Source: a virus. Taken from it: a DNA stretch of 45,550 nt. The stretch spans positions 1 through 45,550 of the IMG/VR virus record IMGVR_UViG_3300045116_000567; one strand, given 5' to 3'. The notes beneath the pieces are model-generated. The model had not been told where the DNA came from, did not search any database, and worked only from the letters and a program-made list of their open reading frames with translations. The position numbers and the translations under genes are program-made. Each line of letters starts with the position of its first letter. Positions within the stretch are counted from its first letter, which is position 1. Shown here piece by piece: positions 10,137 through 36,025 of the stretch.

Positions 10137-13100
10137 TTAGCGCCCAATCCTTAACTTCTTACGCCTCAGTCCGCCAAGCATCGTATCATCGTCCTCTGGA
10201 GGCTCGTGACCCCAGTATCTTACCACACCACCCCCCAACACACCCCGAGGAGTCCTAGACCACCTTCGATGGTGGTTCGGAGCGGGACCAAAGGCCTGCC
10301 CAGGCAAGAGAAGCCTTGTCGGCTTCTGATCCTTCGGCGGTACATAACCAATGTTGATCCCGAGTGGATCAAGACCACCAGCGTAGAAGGATGGAAACTC
10401 CAGCCTCACAGCGATAAGGGCCAGGTTGAGCGCGTCCAAGCGGTGGTCCCCCCACTTTGGCTCCTTGACCTCATAGACAGGGACGCCAGCAGGAGTCCTC
10501 TTCCCGACAACATAGTTATTCAACTGTCTCGTCATGACAAGGTCGGAGCGGGGATACTTTATCTCCGCCAGCTCAAACCGCCGGACCGAGTTCTCAACCA
10601 TGAAGACTTTGCTAGGAACCTTCCTAACCTCTCCATTGATCCCCTTCAACTCCATCTTCGACCCGAAGTCATAGGTCTTCACGATATTCATGAGACGAGC
10701 ATCAATTGGATTCTTGCCAACCACCCTCCTTCCCTCATGCTGAAGCATAGCCCCACCATCCCCGCCGCCGGCATCAACGTAGATCCAGTGCGGAACCCAA
10801 ATCCTGTTCAACTCAAGGATCCGGGCGATCCCAGACGGCGAGGTAAAGTCCTTCTTCGGAATGTTCTCCGCCCAGACCGTGTACGAGCAGTGATCCCCCC
10901 CCTTCAGGGTCGCAACGATGGCAATCTCCGTCCCATGCTCCTTATTCCAATCGACCCCAAAGGTGTAGACAAAGTTAGGATTCCTAGGCATAGAGCCATA
11001 CTCAAAGTCGGCCTGAGCCTGGGTGACCAGGTCATCCCGGTAGACTCCTACACCAGCTGGGGTGAATTTCGCTAGGACCTCCTGGTCCCACGCCTCCTGA
11101 CTCGAACCGAAGTCCTTCTTGATCTGGGGCTCAACAATGTCCCAGTCAGGACGGAGGGTTGCCGGAACATAGAACTCAGCGAAGTCAGGCCGCGACTTAC
11201 AAACTGACTCGAAGTAATCCCCTGAAATGCCGGATGGCGTCGAAGAGATGATGAACTGTGTCGTAGGCCGGGTATAGAGGATGGGGTTGACAACCTTCGT
11301 CAGAACATCGCTAGAGACGAAGGCCCCCTCATCCAGGACGACTAGGTCGGCGTCCTGGCCCCTAGCCGAAAGCCCCTTCGAGCCACTAGAGTCACCAGAG
11401 GCAAAGCCAGAGATGACATTGCCCCCCTTGACGTTCTTATCCGTAATGATCGAGATGACCTGTGGAGATCCTCTCTTGTCCCTCCCAATGTAGGGAGCAA
11501 GATGTGGGGCCAGGGCAAGGAAGGCCCTCATCCTATCGAAGAGGTTCTCTATATGGGACTTCTGCGGAGCAAGAACGAGGACCCTGATATTCTTCCTAAT
11601 CTTCCCGCTATCTGGGTCACGGAGGGCCCCCCCCGCCGAGGTGAAGATATACCATAGGATAAATACAGCCAGTATCGTACTTTTCCCTGTGTTGTGGCAA
11701 TAGAAACCATTAGCAACAAAGTTGTGCGTCCCCTCAACCTCGATGTCGTACGTCGGGGCAGAGCCCAGCAGCTCTATAGACCTAACCCTTAGGAACCTCG
11801 CATTGCCAACAACAAACCCGCTCGAATCCCTCGACTTCTGCTGTAGCAGAAATGCAACCTCCTCACACGCCTCCTCCTTTCCGTAGATCGGGCCAATGAC
11901 CTCAAGAAACCTTAGAATGTCACGTCCCGAGGATATATGGAGCTTCCAGACCTGCCGGTGCCGGGGAAGCTTTGGCTTCTTGTCCTTCCTGATAACTGCA
12001 AGCACTCCAGCCTTGAGCAGTAGGAGCCTGACCTGATCAAGCATTTGCCTGGATGTCGACGTGAGGCTTACATCACATCCCCACTCATTCCCACGCCCAG
12101 CTTTCCTCCAAAACGAGACGCTTCCGTCACCAGAGAACATCCTGTTGATAAGGAGAGCAATGGACAGCCAATCCCAGCCCCAGACACAGGACGGTAAGGT
12201 TTTATTGCTGGATTTCCTGCCAAGCAGACCTAGTCGGAAAAGTTCGGCGGTCAGAAGGTTATCAGTGTTCTTCCTCCCGTCTGTGATATGGACATCCCAG
12301 CCATTACCCTTTGGCCTCTCAGAGCAGGGATAGCCATACCTCTTCAAGGCAATAGCCTTCACCTCATCGACCATCCGCCTGTTATTGTTTGTGAACTTCG
12401 GCGTCTGGTTACCACCGGTAATGTACCCGTCCGTCAGGAGATATCCCAGCAATCTAGCTAGATCGGGCTCGCTCCCATTTCCCCACACGCCATAGTCAGA
12501 GATAATGGAGAGCCACGCACCCTTCTCAAGACCATCCTCAATGGAGATCCACCCGGGCTGGAGGCCACGAGAAGAGAGGTATTCTCTTCTCTCCTTGCGA
12601 TATCCCCAGAACGGGTGGTTTGCTGTGCAATCTACCGATACTCCATTGCTCAGCTTGATCCTGTAGACTAACTTTTCCCCATTCTCCCAAGATCCGGTGA
12701 CGGAGGCTACCCGTTGTGTCTGGTCCCCTGATAGGGAGACAACACAATCACCCACCTGAACGGCCTCTACTGGCCGCCAGCTCCCATCTGCCAGAAGTAC
12801 AGGAACCCCTGCGGGAAGACAGCGCCTTCCAAATCTCAGTACCTTCCGCGGAGAAGGACACATCAGTGCTCCGCGCTGGTAGTCCCATGCTCTCCATGGT
12901 CTCCCACTATCAGGGTCAACGAGATTCTCCTCCCCCCAGAGAAGTGGAGACCGCGTGCTATTGATGGACCTCCAGTCCTTATCGGAGAGCATCTGGGGAA
13001 GGGCTGCCCTAACCTTTGGATCTACAAAGTTCTCATCATGTGGGACGAAGTTACAGGCGACGGCGAAGCCATCCTTATAGAAGACGCCATCATCAGAGGT

Positions 13101-13214
13101 AAAGTTGTTGTACTTCCCTCTAGCACGCTCCAGGCACACCTGACAAATAGGATGAAGCAGAGGCGGAACAGTACGCGGCTCGGCAAACTCAAGTTTTGGA
13201 TCATCGGAAATCAT
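10137..13214 (-). CDS. terL: Terminase large subunit, intein-containing
   Basis: The 1025-residue precursor is the ATP-driven motor and nuclease that packages DNA through the portal. The N-extein ends in FGRR (residue 131), and the C-extein resumes at TGKST (509), so the Walker A motif GRRTGKST is rebuilt only after splicing. Walker B is LVVLDE (about 624-629) and the coupling motif is SSTPSG (about 657). The RNase H-like nuclease domain has acidic residues in FGVDW (D755), IYVDAGG (D814) and HRLDALNLAL (D927). The spliced protein would be 648 residues, normal for phage large terminases. A CxxC pair occurs at residues 24-27 (CQVC). No SD precedes the ATG; TGTAAT lies 5 nt upstream, so it may be leaderless or coupled. 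Confidence 0.93.
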   Translation of the reverse strand: MISDDPKLEFAEPRTVPPLLHPICQVCLERARGKYNNFTSDDGVFYKDGFAVACNFVPHDENFVDPKVRAALPQMLSDKDWRSINSTRSPLLWGEENLVDPDSGRPWRAWDYQRGALMCPSPRKVLRFGRRCLPAGVPVLLADGSWRPVEAVQVGDCVVSLSGDQTQRVASVTGSWENGEKLVYRIKLSNGVSVDCTANHPFWGYRKERREYLSSRGLQPGWISIEDGLEKGAWLSIISDYGVWGNGSEPDLARLLGYLLTDGYITGGNQTPKFTNNNRRMVDEVKAIALKRYGYPCSERPKGNGWDVHITDGRKNTDNLLTAELFRLGLLGRKSSNKTLPSCVWGWDWLSIALLINRMFSGDGSVSFWRKAGRGNEWGCDVSLTSTSRQMLDQVRLLLLKAGVLAVIRKDKKPKLPRHRQVWKLHISSGRDILRFLEVIGPIYGKEEACEEVAFLLQQKSRDSSGFVVGNARFLRVRSIELLGSAPTYDIEVEGTHNFVANGFYCHNTGKSTILAVFILWYIFTSAGGALRDPDSGKIRKNIRVLVLAPQKSHIENLFDRMRAFLALAPHLAPYIGRDKRGSPQVISIITDKNVKGGNVISGFASGDSSGSKGLSARGQDADLVVLDEGAFVSSDVLTKVVNPILYTRPTTQFIISSTPSGISGDYFESVCKSRPDFAEFYVPATLRPDWDIVEPQIKKDFGSSQEAWDQEVLAKFTPAGVGVYRDDLVTQAQADFEYGSMPRNPNFVYTFGVDWNKEHGTEIAIVATLKGGDHCSYTVWAENIPKKDFTSPSGIARILELNRIWVPHWIYVDAGGGDGGAMLQHEGRRVVGKNPIDARLMNIVKTYDFGSKMELKGINGEVRKVPSKVFMVENSVRRFELAEIKYPRSDLVMTRQLNNYVVGKRTPAGVPVYEVKEPKWGDHRLDALNLALIAVRLEFPSFYAGGLDPLGINIGYVPPKDQKPTRLLLPGQAFGPAPNHHRRWSRTPRGVLGGGVVRYWGHEPPEDDDTMLGGLRRKKLRIGR
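11691..12821 (-). other. Intein with LAGLIDADG homing endonuclease inside the terminase Walker A
   Basis: This in-frame insertion of 377 residues is bounded by Cys1 (CLPAGVPVLLADGSW) and the terminal His-Asn (NGFYCHN), with Thr as the +1 extein nucleophile. Block B is TANHPF (T66, H69). The two LAGLIDADG-like helices are LARLLGYLLTDGYI (about 121-134) and INRMFSGDGSV (about 225-235), each with the acidic residue kept. The endonuclease therefore looks intact. Block F is TYDIEVEGTHNFVANG. Insertion at the most conserved point of the ATPase P-loop is the usual choice for terminase inteins, because precise deletion is hard. The element self-splices and can home into intein-free alleles. Confidence 0.92.
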
Positions 13215-13228
13215 GAGTTATTACAATG

Positions 13229-14152
13229 CTATAGATGCATCATACTGGCTTCGTGGCCAAGCATACTGCGGGCGTTGATCCCAGATCTCTGCATCTGGAG
13301 GAGGGCCCTCTGCCTCATCGTCGCGGCCATTGGGGTCCTATTTCCCTCCGAGATCGTCCCACCCAGCTCCAGTCTCTTCTGCCGGATACCAAGATCCTTG
13401 AGGTAATTCCACGTCATCTGCCCAGCCCTGATTGGCATCTCCACAAGATCCACTGTCTTATTCCAGGCGTAGGCCCCCACAGCCCCGATGACCAGGCCAA
13501 TAGCAGCGCCGACAATCATCCCAGGGAGGCCAGCAACACCCCCAGCCGCAGCCCCGCCAGCAGCACCAGCAGCGGCAGTAGAGCCAATGGCGGCAGTCAC
13601 CGCAGCCCAAATGGTCGGGCCTGCAACCATCCCAACTCCAGCCCCGAATCCGTAGGCAGCCTCCTCCCCCGTTATCCTGATACCCTTCTCCACCTTCATG
13701 ATGGGGCTGAGACCCTGGGTCTCATAGTGCATTCTGGTCCCCCATATGACAGGACCAATCCACTTGAAGAAGTTCCTACCGGCGAACCTTCCAATGGCCT
13801 TCACACTATCTGGAAGGGACTGCACTGCCCTCCCTAGGAAACCAGGAAGACTCTTCCCCGCCGCGCCAGCCACCTTCTCCGCCATATTGGGCGTCAGCTC
13901 ATATGGTAGGAAGGTCGAGAGGATGCCTCTCCCACCCCCCTTCGCCATAGCCCAGGTGGCAGCTTCAGCTGTCCTCCAGCCACTCCTCCCCCCCGCCGCG
14001 GCACGATACCAATCGGAGAATCTCTGAGAGATCATCTCCCCACTGAAGTGCTGGGAGAGATGCGCCTTCGCCTCATCGACGCCCATCCCGGGACGTCCGC
14101 CGTACCGCGCCGCCAGCCAAGGGTAGAGACTTCCCTGTTGGACCTGTGCCAC
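13229..14152 (-). CDS. Gly/Ala-rich membrane-active protein, possible DNA ejection protein
   Basis: This 307-residue protein starts at GTG immediately after the previous stop. Residues about 168-230 are a long Gly/Ala/Val/Ile tract (for example GMIVGAAIGLVIGAVGAYAW) that could form two membrane helices. The N-terminal half is mixed and basic. A short polar C-terminus ends MLGHEASMMHL. Glycine-zipper tracts of this sort occur in phage ejection or pilot proteins that enter the host membrane, and the two genes upstream are similar in style. The position next to the terminase is compatible with an internal virion protein. No homologous family is recognised. Confidence 0.55.
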   Translation of the reverse strand: MAQVQQGSLYPWLAARYGGRPGMGVDEAKAHLSQHFSGEMISQRFSDWYRAAAGGRSGWRTAEAATWAMAKGGGRGILSTFLPYELTPNMAEKVAGAAGKSLPGFLGRAVQSLPDSVKAIGRFAGRNFFKWIGPVIWGTRMHYETQGLSPIMKVEKGIRITGEEAAYGFGAGVGMVAGPTIWAAVTAAIGSTAAAGAAGGAAAGGVAGLPGMIVGAAIGLVIGAVGAYAWNKTVDLVEMPIRAGQMTWNYLKDLGIRQKRLELGGTISEGNRTPMAATMRQRALLQMQRSGINARSMLGHEASMMHL

Positions 14153-14764
14153 CTAATACCCCCTCACAGTCCCGTTGCCCATACCAGAGAAGAGGGCTCC
14201 ATAGCGAGCCGCCCTCCCCGCGCCATAGGAATCCCCAGCATTAGCCCTCTTGACAGAGGACGAGAGAAGTCCAGCCCCAATGCCTATCCCACCCGAGAGC
14301 ATCATGGTGCCGACGGCACGAGGCATCCACTGCCGGGCGTGCTTCTGCATAGCCGTTACACCCCGAGAGAGTACCTGAACAGTCTTCTTCTCCCCGAATA
14401 CGTTGGGAACCTTCATTCCGCCAGCAGACCCATAGACCCCGATGCCAGGAGCAAGCCCCTCAACAAACCTAGGAGTAAACGTCTTCGTACCACCCGCAAA
14501 CCTTCTGACATCCTTCACTACCCACGACTTACTTGGATCCTTGTAGCCCCTTCCCCCTCCCATCCATGCTCCCCCCAAGGCTCCAGCTGCGGCACCCCAC
14601 CCGGAGAAGCCTGAGGTCACGAACCCAGCCGCTCCCCCGATCCCAGCCATTGTCGCTGTGGGATGCCCTGCGAGCCATGAGAAGGACCTTGCTACCCTCT
14701 CGTTAGAGAGGAGCCTCCCAAGGAGGGATCCAGCAGTCCTGCCTGCAGCCTTTGCAACAGCCAT
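14153..14764 (-). CDS. Gly/Ala-rich hypothetical protein, possible ejection protein
   Basis: This product has 203 residues from ATG (MAVAKAAGRTAGSLLGRL), with AAGGGTGGT about 9 nt upstream; a GTG two codons earlier is less well placed. It holds two Gly-rich hydrophobic stretches (around 37-65, AGIGGAAGFVTSGFSGWGAA, and around 160-185, GTMMLSGGIGIGAGLL) separated by basic residues. It directly abuts the GTG of the next gene. It resembles that gene in composition, and I infer both belong to the same membrane-penetrating virion module. No motif gives a firmer identity. Confidence 0.5.
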   Translation of the reverse strand: MAVAKAAGRTAGSLLGRLLSNERVARSFSWLAGHPTATMAGIGGAAGFVTSGFSGWGAAAGALGGAWMGGGRGYKDPSKSWVVKDVRRFAGGTKTFTPRFVEGLAPGIGVYGSAGGMKVPNVFGEKKTVQVLSRGVTAMQKHARQWMPRAVGTMMLSGGIGIGAGLLSSSVKRANAGDSYGAGRAARYGALFSGMGNGTVRGY

Positions 14765-14821
14765 CGTCACACCACCCTTACTACCATTTTATACTAGACA
14801 CAAGTGCTTTACCAGACAGGG

Positions 14822-17800
14822 TTACATCCTCCCATGTCTCCTTGAGGGATGGTTGGGGCCTGGATTCGGTTGAGAGTGAGCCAACTGCCCCACTGCACGG
14901 TTATGAAGCTCCTCCCGCGTCTGGGCTCCCCCATACTGCGCCCCCAACTCCGGGGCCGGAAGCGTCGCTGCCCCCTTCCGCGCTGACGGAGGGATAGGTG
15001 GCGGGCGCCTCGGCGTAGGGGGGGAGACCCGGCTCGGCCCCTCAAGATCCACCCGGGCCCTCATCCTACTCCACTCCCTCACTACCTCCAGATCCTTCTT
15101 CAGGAAGGTCTTGGCACCAGCCCTCTCGACAATCTCCGTCAGGACACCGGCAACGGCAGACTTCTGCTCCATCGTAAAGGCAGAGGACATCATCATCGGA
15201 GGAGCATTAGTGATGGACCACAGCCCTATACGGGTGCTCTGCCAGTCACCCTTCCGCTCCAGCCTCTCCAGGGCCATTGTGTCCTGAACCTTCTGCACCC
15301 TCATAATCTCGTCCTGGATACCGGCAGAGCCTCCCCAGAGCCTTGCCGGTGACGGATCTATGAGGGAGACCCTCCCCTGCCTATCGATCAGGATGTTATT
15401 CGGGTTGATATCAGAGTGGGTAAGGTTCCTTCGGTGAAGAGTCTCAACCCCCTCTCGCAAGCTCCTTATCTGCTGATCGGAGAGACTCTTCCCAGATTTC
15501 ATCAGATCATCCAGTGTCTGAGTCTCCCCAAGAGACTCCATGAAGAGAGTCTTGAACTCCTCCTCCCCCTTATTGAGAATGGCCCTCCCGCGGCCATAGG
15601 GTGTCGGAGAGATAGTCCCCTGGAGAGTCTGAAGCCCAGCTACCTCACCCTCAATCTGGGCTGTCACATACCCAGTGTCCTTCCCCCTCAGATTGTAGAG
15701 TTTCCTGACGTACCGAAACTTCTCACCACCAACCTCTGTCTCCATGAGGTGGACAGCCCCAGACATCCCCTCTCCAACACCGCTGAGAGTCTTCACAACT
15801 CTCCCGCCCTCCAGTGCCTCCATGAACTTAGGGTGTGCCAAGACCTCCTTCAAGACATCGGCACTCCCAGGAGCGATCTTCAGAGCTCTTGCCAAGCCCC
15901 TGGCAGCATCCCACCCAGTCCCAAAGTCTGTCTGCTGCTCCCTCTGGGCACCAGAGAAGCCGACATTTTGGAATCCCTCCAGGGTCCTTGGATGGCCCCT
16001 TCTGTAGAGGGCCCCTTCGACACGAGAGTAGGCGTAGTCCGTCGCCTCCCTGGTAGCCGATAGGAGAGCCGCCCCCACCCCCGCCATCAGGGCGGCACCA
16101 CCGAGGACAGCGGGGAGGATCCAGCTGGCCTGGGCCCGCTCCCTCATAGCCACCGTCGCTGGCGACTGTGACGGGGGGGCAGAGGGAAGCGGAATCTCAG
16201 GCTTTGGCGGAATTACGGTCTGGCTCTGCGAGGAGGCCCGGGGATGGAGGAGCTTGGACTTAACCACGCGCCGATCCTCCTTATAAAGGTTGAGCCTCCT
16301 CCCTGCCGGGATCCGCTGAGAGATCTTCCCCCCTGACATCCTCTGAGCGAGGGTTATCTCCCTCGCTATAATGGCGTTCCCGCTTGCCACGGGGACAGAC
16401 CCGATCTGCTCAGCCGCCACAGCCACCGACTGTGTAAGACGGTCAATGACATCGGAAGCACGGCGGTGCTCTGCGTCCGAGATACGGAGATGTCGGACAC
16501 GATCCCTATTCTCATAGTCCCACCGGTGTAGAGCCCTCTTTACGTCACCGGCGGGGATCTCCACCGTCGGGTTAACCTTCCTGACGATCTCGGCCGGGGG
16601 CTGGTAATGCGGCATATGCCCCGGGAGTCTCCCATGTATGTCCACCCAGCTCACACCGGAGGCTAGTAACCTCTTCTCAGCGGCAAGCGCTTCGGCCGCT
16701 GCAAGGGCCTCTGGCTTCAGGACGTTATGCCATGCCCACCTTACATCCGGCTCCCTGATGTAGGTTGCCATCAGCTCCTGAGGGTCACCCCTCCACCCGC
16801 GCTGCATATTCCAGAAGGTGATCTGCCTCTCGGCCTCATAGCTCATCCTGGGCGATAGCCACCCCCAATCTGCCCTACTAGCAATCGTCGGTAGCGTCCC
16901 AATCTCGTCAAGAGCCGGCGAGGCCACCGTCTTGAGACGCCCGACTATGGCTGCCTCCGCCCTCCGGGCTGGAGTAGCGATCCTCCTCAGAGCTCTCTCA
17001 AGAAATCCTAGTACCGTCCCACGGACAGAACTAAGTCCCGACCCGAAGTCGGTTAGCTGCTTCCTTGATATGGAAGCCTCACCCCTCTCCCCAAAACCTG
17101 GGATCTCACTGTCGTGGTACCCCTGGAGAGCCCCAGCCACAAGCCTCGTGGCGAGGTAGGTACCCCCGATCACCCCTGCCCTCAACCAAGGGTTGGCCCC
17201 CCTTGAGAGGTAGGCCGCCCCGCCAGCCGCGATGGCTCCCCAGAAGGGTCCAGTCTTCTGCCTCGAAGCAAGGAGATCAGCCCCAATGGCGACGGCAACG
17301 GCATAGGGGGCAACCCTATGGAGGAGTGGTCCCTCCGCAGCCCTCATCCCCTTCAGAACATCAGAGACCTGCTCTGCCCCCTTCGCAGGGGCGGGAAGGT
17401 TGGCAACCCCCAAGGCCGAGGAGGAGAGGGCATCCTCAGCCACGCCACCCAATTTCCGGGCAAAGTCATGCATCCTCTCCCGGTCGGAGGGAAATCTCAG
17501 ATCGAAGCGATGGGTCACCCCCTCATGGATGACCTGTGCCCCAACTGCCCTGGGGACCCTCTTCCCCTGCCTCCTCAATGCCCTCCGGGCCGTATCGGAG
17601 TACCCAATCCAGAGGAGTGAATCCTCTCCCGGTAGAGCTCCCTTCCTCTTCAGGTGGGCGAGGGCCGAGAGACCCTTAGTATTCTCCCCCGAGATGAGGA
17701 TCTCTGCCCCTTGGGAGATATCATCATTCCAGAACTTGGCAGCATCCTCCGCCGCCTGGTACTTCCTCATCCTCTTCAGGAGGCCAAGGCTGAGTGGCTC

Positions 17801-18457
17801 CTTCCCCTTGGAGAGGTGATGGGAGACAATCCCGGTCTCCCTCTCAATGAACTCAAGAAGCTCGGCATCCTTGAGGGCATACCCCTTGAGATGTTCAAAC
17901 TCACTAGGGGTACCACCCAGGAGCTTCCATATCTCCCCGCCCGAGACACCAAGTTTCACTTTCCCTGTAGGGGACTTGCCAAGAGCCCTCTCAAGGTCAG
18001 AGGCGAAGGACTCCAGGGACCACGGACGATGGGGAGAAAGGCCAGGAGTCCTCCCGAAGATCTCCTTGGCCACATCCATCATGTCGACGGAGCGAGCCCG
18101 GGGCTTTATCCCTCTGAGGCCCCTGGCCCCAGCGATCCTCTCCCTTATGGGGAGGACGGCGGAGTCGAACCTCCTGGAGTTCCACCCGACGAGGATGTCT
18201 GTGGAAAGGATGGAGGCCTGCCGCGGGAAGGCCTCGAGGAGCTCCTTCTCCCTCCCCAAGGCGTGGGCAAGATCCTTGGAGTAGGCATCCCTATTGACAT
18301 GGGCCCACTGGGGTTTCCCCCCATGGCGAGCCCACGCAACGGAGAGCACCTGGTGCTTCCGCCTCTCCCTTGGGGAGAATGGATTCCTCGAACCCTCCGG
18401 CGGGCGAGTCTCTATGTCGAAGTAGAGATAGTTGAGCTTCTGGCTAGAGGAGGACAT
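14822..18457 (-). CDS. Exonuclease-kinase fusion protein with central membrane segments
   Basis: This 1211-residue multidomain protein has three parts. Residues about 8-215 carry the three motifs of a DnaQ/PolB-type DEDDy 3'-5' exonuclease: YFDIETRP (D14, E16), GWNSRRFD (D98) and YALKDAEL (Y193, D197); no polymerase domain follows. Residues about 380-450 and 778-802 are Gly/Ala-rich hydrophobic segments that could cross membranes. TDFGSGLSS (about 469) and TDFGTGWDA (about 843) are an internal repeat. Residues about 888-1060 look like a protein kinase: Gly-rich loop VGEGMSGAV, Lys in VRKL (919), catalytic loop HSDINPNN (1014-1021) and metal-binding Asp in LIDPS (1034). The Pro-rich C-terminus ends RRHGRM. 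It lies in the virion gene block beside membrane-active proteins, so it may be packaged and injected; that is inference. Confidence 0.75.
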   Translation of the reverse strand: MSSSSQKLNYLYFDIETRPPEGSRNPFSPRERRKHQVLSVAWARHGGKPQWAHVNRDAYSKDLAHALGREKELLEAFPRQASILSTDILVGWNSRRFDSAVLPIRERIAGARGLRGIKPRARSVDMMDVAKEIFGRTPGLSPHRPWSLESFASDLERALGKSPTGKVKLGVSGGEIWKLLGGTPSEFEHLKGYALKDAELLEFIERETGIVSHHLSKGKEPLSLGLLKRMRKYQAAEDAAKFWNDDISQGAEILISGENTKGLSALAHLKRKGALPGEDSLLWIGYSDTARRALRRQGKRVPRAVGAQVIHEGVTHRFDLRFPSDRERMHDFARKLGGVAEDALSSSALGVANLPAPAKGAEQVSDVLKGMRAAEGPLLHRVAPYAVAVAIGADLLASRQKTGPFWGAIAAGGAAYLSRGANPWLRAGVIGGTYLATRLVAGALQGYHDSEIPGFGERGEASISRKQLTDFGSGLSSVRGTVLGFLERALRRIATPARRAEAAIVGRLKTVASPALDEIGTLPTIASRADWGWLSPRMSYEAERQITFWNMQRGWRGDPQELMATYIREPDVRWAWHNVLKPEALAAAEALAAEKRLLASGVSWVDIHGRLPGHMPHYQPPAEIVRKVNPTVEIPAGDVKRALHRWDYENRDRVRHLRISDAEHRRASDVIDRLTQSVAVAAEQIGSVPVASGNAIIAREITLAQRMSGGKISQRIPAGRRLNLYKEDRRVVKSKLLHPRASSQSQTVIPPKPEIPLPSAPPSQSPATVAMRERAQASWILPAVLGGAALMAGVGAALLSATREATDYAYSRVEGALYRRGHPRTLEGFQNVGFSGAQREQQTDFGTGWDAARGLARALKIAPGSADVLKEVLAHPKFMEALEGGRVVKTLSGVGEGMSGAVHLMETEVGGEKFRYVRKLYNLRGKDTGYVTAQIEGEVAGLQTLQGTISPTPYGRGRAILNKGEEEFKTLFMESLGETQTLDDLMKSGKSLSDQQIRSLREGVETLHRRNLTHSDINPNNILIDRQGRVSLIDPSPARLWGGSAGIQDEIMRVQKVQDTMALERLERKGDWQSTRIGLWSITNAPPMMMSSAFTMEQKSAVAGVLTEIVERAGAKTFLKKDLEVVREWSRMRARVDLEGPSRVSPPTPRRPPPIPPSARKGAATLPAPELGAQYGGAQTREELHNRAVGQLAHSQPNPGPNHPSRRHGRM

Positions 18458-18475: not shown

Positions 18476-19174
18476 CTATTCCCCCTCATGAAGCAATCTC
18501 TCTATCCTGGAGACCTTCTCAAGGAGATCGAAGGTCCTACTGACAGCATTCTCCGTCAGGGCGCCCTTTGTCAGAGCGGTGACCATAGCCTTCCTCTTCG
18601 GGGTGGCAACGATGGCATCGAGAATCTCCATCCTCTGCTTCTGAATCCTCTCCTTCATCCTCCACGCGGGGTGTTCAGCCAGGGTCTCCACCTCATCCCC
18701 AACATTGTTGACCATCGTCACCTGCTTCAAGAGGAGAGTCCCATCGGAGTCATGAGCCAAGCCCGAGAGGGTGAGGGAGAGACGGTAGTCCTCTATATCC
18801 AACTCGACCAGCTTCGACACGAGGGAGCGCAGGGTTGGACTCCTCTCTATCTCCCCCTCAATGTCCAACTCCTCAATGTACTCCACAAATCGGTTGTTGA
18901 TGAGGTTGACCTCGACGATACACTGTTTCCCAACGGGGAAGTTGCCACCGAGCCCGTCCTCCACCCCAATGGGACATCTCTCCACGAAGGGACACTGATT
19001 CCCGCCGCGGCAGATCATCGGGGAGAGGTAGACACCCCCCAACCTCCCGGCGAGGATGGTCCTCTCCAATCTCCCCCGGGCCGCAGGAGAGATCTCCACC
19101 CCGGAATAGTCATCGAGGACAACCCCAACAGGGCCAGAGGGGACCAGAGCACCAGGAGTCTCATCGGAAGCCAT
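18476..19174 (-). CDS. Cysteine-cluster protein, candidate small terminase subunit
   Basis: This 232-residue protein has a four-Cys cluster, ICRGGNQCPFVERCPIG then GKQC (about residues 55-84), probably binding zinc or an iron-sulfur cluster. It is followed by an all-helical region and a C-terminal helix-turn pattern (KRKAMVTALTKGALTENAVS). A similar Cys pattern is, in my memory, seen in proteins upstream of large terminases of large Gram-positive phages, sometimes labelled small terminase. This is unverified, and three genes separate it from the large terminase here. The ATG lacks an SD; TATACT lies 6 nt upstream, so the message may be leaderless. Confidence 0.55.
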   Translation of the reverse strand: MASDETPGALVPSGPVGVVLDDYSGVEISPAARGRLERTILAGRLGGVYLSPMICRGGNQCPFVERCPIGVEDGLGGNFPVGKQCIVEVNLINNRFVEYIEELDIEGEIERSPTLRSLVSKLVELDIEDYRLSLTLSGLAHDSDGTLLLKQVTMVNNVGDEVETLAEHPAWRMKERIQKQRMEILDAIVATPKRKAMVTALTKGALTENAVSRTFDLLEKVSRIERLLHEGE

Positions 19175-20222: not shown

Positions 20223-20240
20223 GATCGCGGGGGGAATTCC

Positions 20241-20320
20241 GGCCTCAAAAGTCCTACCGGCCTCAAAAGTCCTACCGGGCCCTACCGGGCCCTACCAGAC
20301 CCTACCGGGCCTCACCAGAC
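20241..20320. repeat. CCTACCGGGC tandem array A
   Basis: Two 18-bp units (GGCCTCAAAAGTCCTACC, 20241-20276) run into five 10-bp units based on CCTACCGGGC (20271-20320). The array is followed by ATATATAG (20331-20338). The same decamer recurs in other intergenic gaps of the window (29.4, 36.0 and 39.4 kb, with partial copies at 27.3 and 29.8 kb). The array lies between the small heat-shock gene and the late minus-strand genes, so a protein-binding or operator role is plausible. Confidence 0.75.
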
Positions 20321-20394
20321 CCCCAGACCCATATATATAGAGGAATACAATTGTAGAGAGAGAGGAGGGGGAATACAGCCGCGGGGGAGGGGGG

Positions 20395-29123: not shown

Positions 29124-29396
29124 GTGAAACCGAGCAAGAGGGACAGGGTGCGGAGCATCCAGAAGAAGGCCGACTACGAAGTCCTCAAGGGGGGCCTCCC
29201 CTTCAGGTGGCAGGAGACCTGCACCCGCCACTACGACCCCTCCGGAATCCCCAAGGACATCCGCCCGGAGAGGTGGTACGACGAGGAGGGGAGGAAGATC
29301 CCGCGCGCACCGGAAGGCTGGAGCCCGCGCGTTCCCATCCACCCCAACGAAACACGGGAGCCCGGCGACAAGGGCCCCTTCGTGGACCCGACCTAG
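29124..29396 (+). CDS. Small basic hypothetical protein, GTG start
   Basis: 90 residues from GTG behind GAAGGAGGG; the open frame extends upstream to 29052 but without an SD. The product is strongly basic at the N-terminus (KPSKRDRVRSIQKKADYEVL) and Pro/Gly/Arg-rich later (PRAPEGWSPRVPIHPNETRE), so it is probably extended. It stops at the edge of a CCTACCGG array. Confidence 0.55.
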   Translation: MKPSKRDRVRSIQKKADYEVLKGGLPFRWQETCTRHYDPSGIPKDIRPERWYDEEGRKIPRAPEGWSPRVPIHPNETREPGDKGPFVDPT

Positions 29397-29440
29397 CCAG
29401 CCCTACCGGGCCTAGCCGGACCTACCGGTCCTAGCCGACA
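29394..29440. repeat. CCTACCGGGC tandem array B
   Basis: Four to five 10-bp units alternate CCTACCGG and CCTAGCCGG cores between 29394 and 29440, immediately after a stop codon. The following 96 nt before the next gene is G/C-rich, with CCGGG/CCCGG complementarity. Same family as arrays A, C and D. Confidence 0.75.
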
Positions 29441-35950: not shown

Positions 35951-36025
35951 AACGGTCCTACCGGACCTAGCCGGCTCTACCGGGCTCTACCGGGCCCTAC
36001 CGAGCCTAACCGGTCCTACCGGACC
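35951..36025. repeat. CCTACCGGGC tandem array C
   Basis: Seven 10-bp units in strict register: AACGGTCCTA, CCGGACCTAG, CCGGCTCTAC, CGGGCTCTAC, CGGGCCCTAC, CGAGCCTAAC, CGGTCCTACC. This is the longest copy of the family. It lies in the 136-nt gap between two membrane-protein genes, 18 nt before the next start. Confidence 0.8.

Follow-up and report, generated by a model that had tools for sequence, protein, structure and literature searches.

A predicted exonuclease-kinase protein encoded upstream of a phage terminase belongs to a modular family with a repeated boundary motif

Polyvalent proteins are multi-enzyme polypeptides of phages and conjugative elements that have been proposed to be injected along with DNA (Iyer et al., 2017; PMC5512222); the packaging of such multi-enzyme proteins in phages and their entry with the DNA form an established theme. 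In addition, individual enzymes are carried in phage heads and delivered with the DNA, as exemplified by T4 Alt, an ADP-ribosyltransferase, and by the ParB/peptidase proteins DarB and DdrB of P1 (PMC5512222). The enzymes of these latter proteins are unrelated to those described below, and no example of a packaged kinase was found in the literature searched. In PMC5512222 the terms SNase and 0305 are absent, and ‘exonuclease’ occurs once, in the title of a reference.

The DNA that we analysed (the window), an IMG/VR record of 45,550 bases, probably represents a fragment. One of its genes, just upstream of the terminase, encodes a large protein in which a DNA-trimming enzyme is predicted to be fused to one that resembles protein kinases. 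Specifically, a DEDDy exonuclease is followed by a Gly/Ala segment, a sequence motif, a middle region, a second segment, a second copy of the motif, the kinase and a tail (Table 1). The original prediction, made from the sequence alone, had held that both enzymes lie in a single protein with their motif residues intact. Indeed, one 1211-residue frame carries both domains, as matched by PHROG and Pfam models, and D14, E16, D98, Y193, D197, K919, HSDINPNN and LIDPS are all present. The protein therefore has at least two unrelated enzyme domains in one phage polypeptide, as polyvalent proteins do, and none of the domains named in PMC5512222 was matched in it by Pfam.

Table 1. Positions in the window of the exonuclease-kinase gene, its parts and its neighbours.
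Feature	Position	Strand	Basis
Whole gene, one frame read from 18457 to 14822; 1211-aa exonuclease-kinase protein	14822..18457	-	Open frame, translation, family homologs
N-terminal DEDDy (PolB-type) exonuclease, residues 2-205; D14, E16, D98, Y193, D197	17843..18454	-	phrog_403, phrog_262, Foldseek/VIA
Gly/Ala hydrophobic segment 1, residues 373-445	17123..17341	-	Hydropathy; conserved in L007
Motif copy 1, residues 441-479 (PGFGERGEASISRKQLTDFGSG)	17021..17137	-	Motif HMM, 42 bits
Middle region, residues 480-773, no known domain	16139..17020	-	No Pfam/PHROG match; BLASTP gap
Gly/Ala hydrophobic segment 2, residues 774-806	16040..16138	-	Hydropathy peak 1.98
Motif copy 2, residues 816-854 (LEGFQNVGFSGAQREQQTDFGTGW)	15896..16012	-	Motif HMM, 42 bits
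Kinase domain, residues 847-1077; K919, D1016, N1021, D1034	15227..15919	-	Pfam, AF2, PDB matches
C-terminal tail, residues 1078-1211	14825..15226	-	Translation
Conserved upstream gene, Cys-rich 232-aa protein	18476..19174	-	Homologs directly upstream in many loci, ME3 and KLEB27-3
Gly/Ala-rich 205-aa membrane-type protein	14153..14770	-	Hydropathy; homolog in L007
Gly/Ala-rich 307-aa membrane-type protein, C-terminal TMRQ...LGxEA conserved	13229..14152	-	Homologs in many loci, KLEB27-3 gp9 and ME3_12
Terminase large subunit with LAGLIDADG intein	10137..13214	-	phrog_2 (1.2e-23); Pfam LAGLIDADG_3, Intein_splicing

All three motifs of a DEDDy exonuclease occur at the N terminus, with ExoI (DxE) at D14/E16, ExoII (Nx3FD) at N93 and F97-D98, and ExoIII (Yx3D) at Y193/D197. 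The domain matched phrog_403 (E = 2.8e-7) and phrog_262 (1.7e-5), and reached only E = 0.1 with Pfam PolB_exo1. The AlphaFold model is poor (pLDDT 48), and nearly all of its best fold matches are PolB-family polymerase exonuclease domains (VIA Z 8.3 over 113 residues, within residues 6-155; Foldseek 1.6e-4), in agreement with the Yx3D form of the third motif. Thus the proposed exonuclease is well supported by sequence, and its structure model is of low confidence. Motif order and fold matches are those of PolB-family exonuclease domains and phrog_403; in contrast to the polymerases, the window protein carries no polymerase domain, and its exonuclease is instead fused to membrane segments and a kinase. 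D14, E16 and D98 are invariant in the nearest exonucleases of the family described below. An HMM of the exonucleases of the four nearest members gave 8.4 bits with the window domain, and one made from all other members gave 1.1 bits, under the shuffled maximum. Because of this weak recognition, the window exonuclease may have been acquired separately from those of other members.

The kinase assignment proved firm. Pkinase (7.6e-8; 32.5 bits against a cut-off of 31.7) and Kdo (1.5e-7) both exceed their Pfam cut-offs, and a kinase HMM built without the window gave it 131 bits, compared with 0.7 for the best of 200 shuffled copies. An AlphaFold (AF2) model of residues 845-1110 (pLDDT 80.6, pTM 0.78) aligned with kinases of the PDB with Z up to 14.9 over 173-181 residues at 3.0 A. 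The model has the two-lobed kinase fold with a short C-terminal lobe, and its C-terminal part is poorly modelled (pLDDT below 60). Structure prediction of both ends of the protein, which had been suggested as a check, therefore yielded the expected fold for the kinase and only the poor model for the exonuclease. HSDINPNN spans residues 1014-1021 and includes the catalytic D1016; LIDPS spans 1032-1036 and includes the metal-binding D1034. Fold and active-site K, E, HxD, N and D are shared with Bud32/RIO/ABC1/Kdo and bacterial Hanks-type kinases, from which the window kinase differs in its short C-terminal lobe and in having DPS in place of DFG. The kinase subtype of polyvalent proteins has an insert between His and Asp and has lost the C-terminal lobe (PMC5512222). 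The window kinase is not of this subtype, as its HSD is contiguous and helices of the C-terminal lobe remain in the model. Matches to NCBIfam equivalogs fall far under their cut-offs, and the Kdo- and Bud32-type matches would fit a protein substrate or a small molecule alike. None of the defence-system families fits the window protein; PADLOC matches reflect general kinase similarity.

Between the two enzymes lie the two hydrophobic Gly/Ala segments that had been foreseen. Segment 1 (peak KD 1.41 and 1.01) is kept in the nearest relative, the protein of locus L007, with 44% identity over residues 347-506. Residues 480-773 gave no Pfam or PHROG match and are mostly unalignable by BLASTP, even with L007.

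The setting had been described as a late gene block in which two membrane-active Gly/Ala proteins and the terminase stand beside the gene. We found exactly these neighbours, and the arrangement of packaging and head genes with membrane-type proteins is conserved across relatives. Terminase and portal sequences relate the window to Bacillus phage KLEB27-3, Moorella phage MTATph1 and Acinetobacter phage ME3, and the ME3 annotation names Bacillus phage 0305phi8-36 as a homolog of its terminase and portal. The records closest to the window are metagenomic contigs of about 7-12 kb. On this sequence evidence, the carriers of the family are uncultivated 0305phi8-36/ME3-like phages. The Cys-rich protein encoded upstream matches the C-terminal part of ME3_9, which is annotated as an RNA (guanine-N1-)-methyltransferase. 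The terminase intein, which includes the LAGLIDADG domain, lies at about residues 131-508; the inteins of relatives are shorter or differently built and lie near the same GRR/GK site.

A duplicated TDFG motif had also been reported, and its two copies are present, at residues 469 and 843. However, TDFG is not a bare tetrapeptide but the core of a motif of about 40 residues that is conserved across a family of proteins (core IEGLxHGGxAxxxRKxxTDFGSG; longer form (SGKDDxYNT)IEGLxHGGxAxxxRKxxTDFGSG(Y/W)). An HMM of this motif built without the window and L007 recognised copy 1 with 24 bits and copy 2 with 19 bits, compared with 2.4 for shuffled sequence. Each family protein has one to five copies, mostly directly ahead of an enzyme module. 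A copy lies no more than 25 residues ahead of 18 of the 23 kinases, where random placement expects 1.8, a figure partly helped by the kinase alignment starting at the end of the motif. The same holds for eight of nine PD-(D/E)XK modules (0.65 expected), and SNase modules mostly follow the motif at a near-constant 100-125 residues. Searches of isolated phages, plasmids and solved structures did not find the motif, nor did a GTDB genome scan with one short pattern, a weak negative. Most likely the motif marks the start of a module, where it would either be processed or act as a flexible element for targeting.

Two more specific ideas about the motif failed. That every copy is preceded by a transmembrane helix was rejected, since a strict threshold is passed ahead of only 15 of 97 motifs (15%), though this is far over the background of 1.4%. 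A fixed protease site at E|G was dropped because several copies, among them copy 1 of the window, have P or D in place of E.

Direct use of the full protein gave no tblastn match among isolated phages, and scanning viral and genome contigs with peptide patterns gave no relatives; these were reached only via the terminase, the portal and the motif. In the loci reached through terminase and portal, homologs lie directly upstream of the terminase and all share the motif around TDFG, and a scan of IMG/VR with the motif only yielded 56 loci. A terminase was found for 94 of 99 motif-bearing ORFs (near-duplicates included), in every case 0.8-3.7 kb downstream and encoded on the same strand; part of the locus set was gathered through the terminase, and the loci found by motif only show the same arrangement. 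In the window this gap is 1608 bases, and the protein combines two motif copies with a same-strand place before the terminase, the Cys-rich gene preceding it and a Gly/Ala gene following. We therefore regard it as a member of an undescribed family of modular proteins in which predicted enzymes are swapped around a shared, repeated motif. No description of the motif or the family was found in the papers searched, subscription-only papers being outside the search. The motif is almost confined to the pre-terminase gene in the 13 large contigs where it was matched, and one contig encodes a second motif protein. This protein (L217 4343-9265, 1640 aa) lies about 40 kb away from L187 in the same contig; by eye it starts with DxE exonuclease-like motifs, and the family exonuclease HMM gives no match.

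Architectures were assigned with HMMs made from family members for 62 less redundant proteins, among which an N-terminal DEDD exonuclease occurs in 26, SNase in 31, a kinase in 19 and PD-(D/E)XK in nine. Exonuclease matches are short or weak in some members. Exonuclease and kinase occur together in seven (the window, L164, L176, L180, L181, L183 and L184), and L180 unites two kinases, an exonuclease and an SNase. For L184, the family-HMM assignments are in line with PADLOC, which gave a DEDDh match (2.2e-11) and a weak Cas4 match. Many members have SNase matches above the Pfam cut-off, and these modules resemble SPbeta-type YokF nucleases, some of which are annotated ‘chromosome degrading nuclease’. 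The PD-(D/E)XK modules (Cas4-like) were so named because of a conserved H...E...GxxD...DxKT...QxxxY pattern together with weak Cas4-type matches in the PDB and PADLOC. In the 19 family kinases G53, E94, E130, D172 and D190 (A5 numbering) are invariant and K75 and N177 nearly so, and the others are only 17-37% identical to the window kinase. Five members (L103, L164, L169, L178 and L181) share a module of about 150 residues with an invariant HxH...HxDxH pattern (GTGHKRI..IPK), possibly a metal-dependent enzyme, which matched no known family. In L115 (318-3599), a weak ATP-grasp (R2K) match (E 0.0023) lies between two motif copies.

Comparison with L007, whose terminase is 67-68% identical to that of the window, illustrates the exchange of modules. 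The two modular proteins align from residue 347 on in two blocks (44% and 38%), whereas BLASTP gave no alignment for residues 1-346 or for much of the stretch that separates the two motif copies. The N-terminal module of L007 (781-1500) is unrelated to the window exonuclease; a faint likeness to ADP-ribosyltransferases noticed by eye found no support in databases and was set aside. On a terminase tree of 53 members, no fewer than 22 changes are required to account for the architecture labels, and no fewer than six for the kinase by itself, counts that are somewhat inflated by members cut at a contig end.

Acinetobacter phage vB_AbaM_ME3 encodes a hypothetical protein of 529 residues, ME3_11, in the slot that the window gene occupies. 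Like the N-terminal part of the window protein, it has a DEDD exonuclease (51 bits, family HMM) followed by one hydrophobic segment; in contrast, it stops there, without boundary motif or kinase. This suggests that exonuclease and membrane segment could be the older core, to which units of motif and module were added later. In KLEB27-3 the slot holds small Gly/Ala proteins only.

The architecture of the protein, its intact active sites, the fixed position of its gene and the swapping of modules among relatives are shown by the sequence analysis. The location in the packaging block, the membrane-type segments, the swapped modules and the intact active sites fit the polyvalent-protein concept. 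Like polyvalent proteins, the family consists of large polypeptides of unrelated enzymes (kinases, nucleases and peptidase-like modules in PMC5512222) whose modules recombine, encoded by phages with terminase and portal; it differs in the repeated motif at module boundaries and the fixed pre-terminase place. The window protein is probably a variant of such a multi-enzyme effector, packaged and delivered with the DNA, with its place in the virion and its substrates presumed. Such a role is more likely than it would be for an isolated fusion because the family is lineage-wide and its modules are exchanged. Specifically, the protein would be a late product that is incorporated into the head or at the portal and leaves with the DNA on ejection. 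Its Gly/Ala segments would hold it in the membrane of the host or take it through, its exonuclease would work on DNA where this enters the cell, and phosphorylation of host or phage proteins by its kinase would serve takeover or counter-defence. We lean towards this explanation as a whole, from a lineage-wide pre-terminase family through head or portal placement and ejection to action in the host. A bolder version, which we consider doubtful, is that the motif is a dedicated signal for processing or export, and that these phages make their interchangeable effectors as one polyprotein, from which individual enzymes tethered to the membrane arise by cleavage, or emerge by threading, while the DNA is being ejected.

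Against delivery, a free nuclease in a DNA-filled head would have to be kept inactive, and the slot genes of KLEB27-3 are annotated ‘hypothetical’ where several of its other virion genes are annotated ‘structural protein’. The main rival is an unpackaged, membrane-bound nuclease and kinase of the infected cell: a late factor for superinfection exclusion or host-DNA degradation whose nucleases destroy incoming or host DNA and whose kinase modifies host targets. Most members do combine nucleases (DEDD, SNase, PD-(D/E)XK) with hydrophobic segments, and the YokF likeness of the SNase modules points the same way. We nevertheless think this unlikely, as a slot between the Cys-rich gene and the terminase, within the head and packaging unit, suits assembly better, and exclusion factors tend to be small products of genes in variable regions. 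That very slot, invariably upstream of the terminase, would suit a factor for DNA packaging or head assembly, which would use its exonuclease or SNase to trim genome ends or debris near the terminase, with the kinase as a regulator of assembly. Modules are freely swapped among relatives with conserved terminases, unlike a core assembly function, and the slot is reduced to exonuclease and transmembrane segment in ME3 and to small proteins in KLEB27-3, so we give this reading somewhat less weight still. Finally, the enzyme domains might be vestigial or serve as non-catalytic scaffolds in a structural protein, as the short or weak exonuclease matches of some members and the DPS of the window kinase could indicate. 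The invariance of the catalytic G, E, D and D and near-invariance of K and N in 19 divergent kinases, and of D14/E16/D98 among the nearest exonucleases, make this very improbable.

With these relatives, one odd fusion becomes part of a defined family that can be searched for by its signature, has a fixed place in the genome and offers an enzyme ‘slot’ that can be read. The motif can be used to look for such effectors in further uncultivated phages and to test the processing and carriage of large multi-enzyme proteins. Should delivery occur, the modules that follow the motif copies would form a catalogue of enzymes, kinases included, sent into hosts with phage DNA; if the polyprotein version were true, they would be exchangeable cassettes of a delivery system, carried by the phage, for enzymes of takeover and counter-defence.

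Elsewhere in the window, positions 20400-45550 hold mostly short ORFs, and ten larger ones that were tested gave no PHROG match. C/T-rich tandem repeats of about 10 bases (CCTACCGGGC-like) occur in the right part of the window at 20239-20322, 29390-29437, 35953-36025 and 39429-39472.
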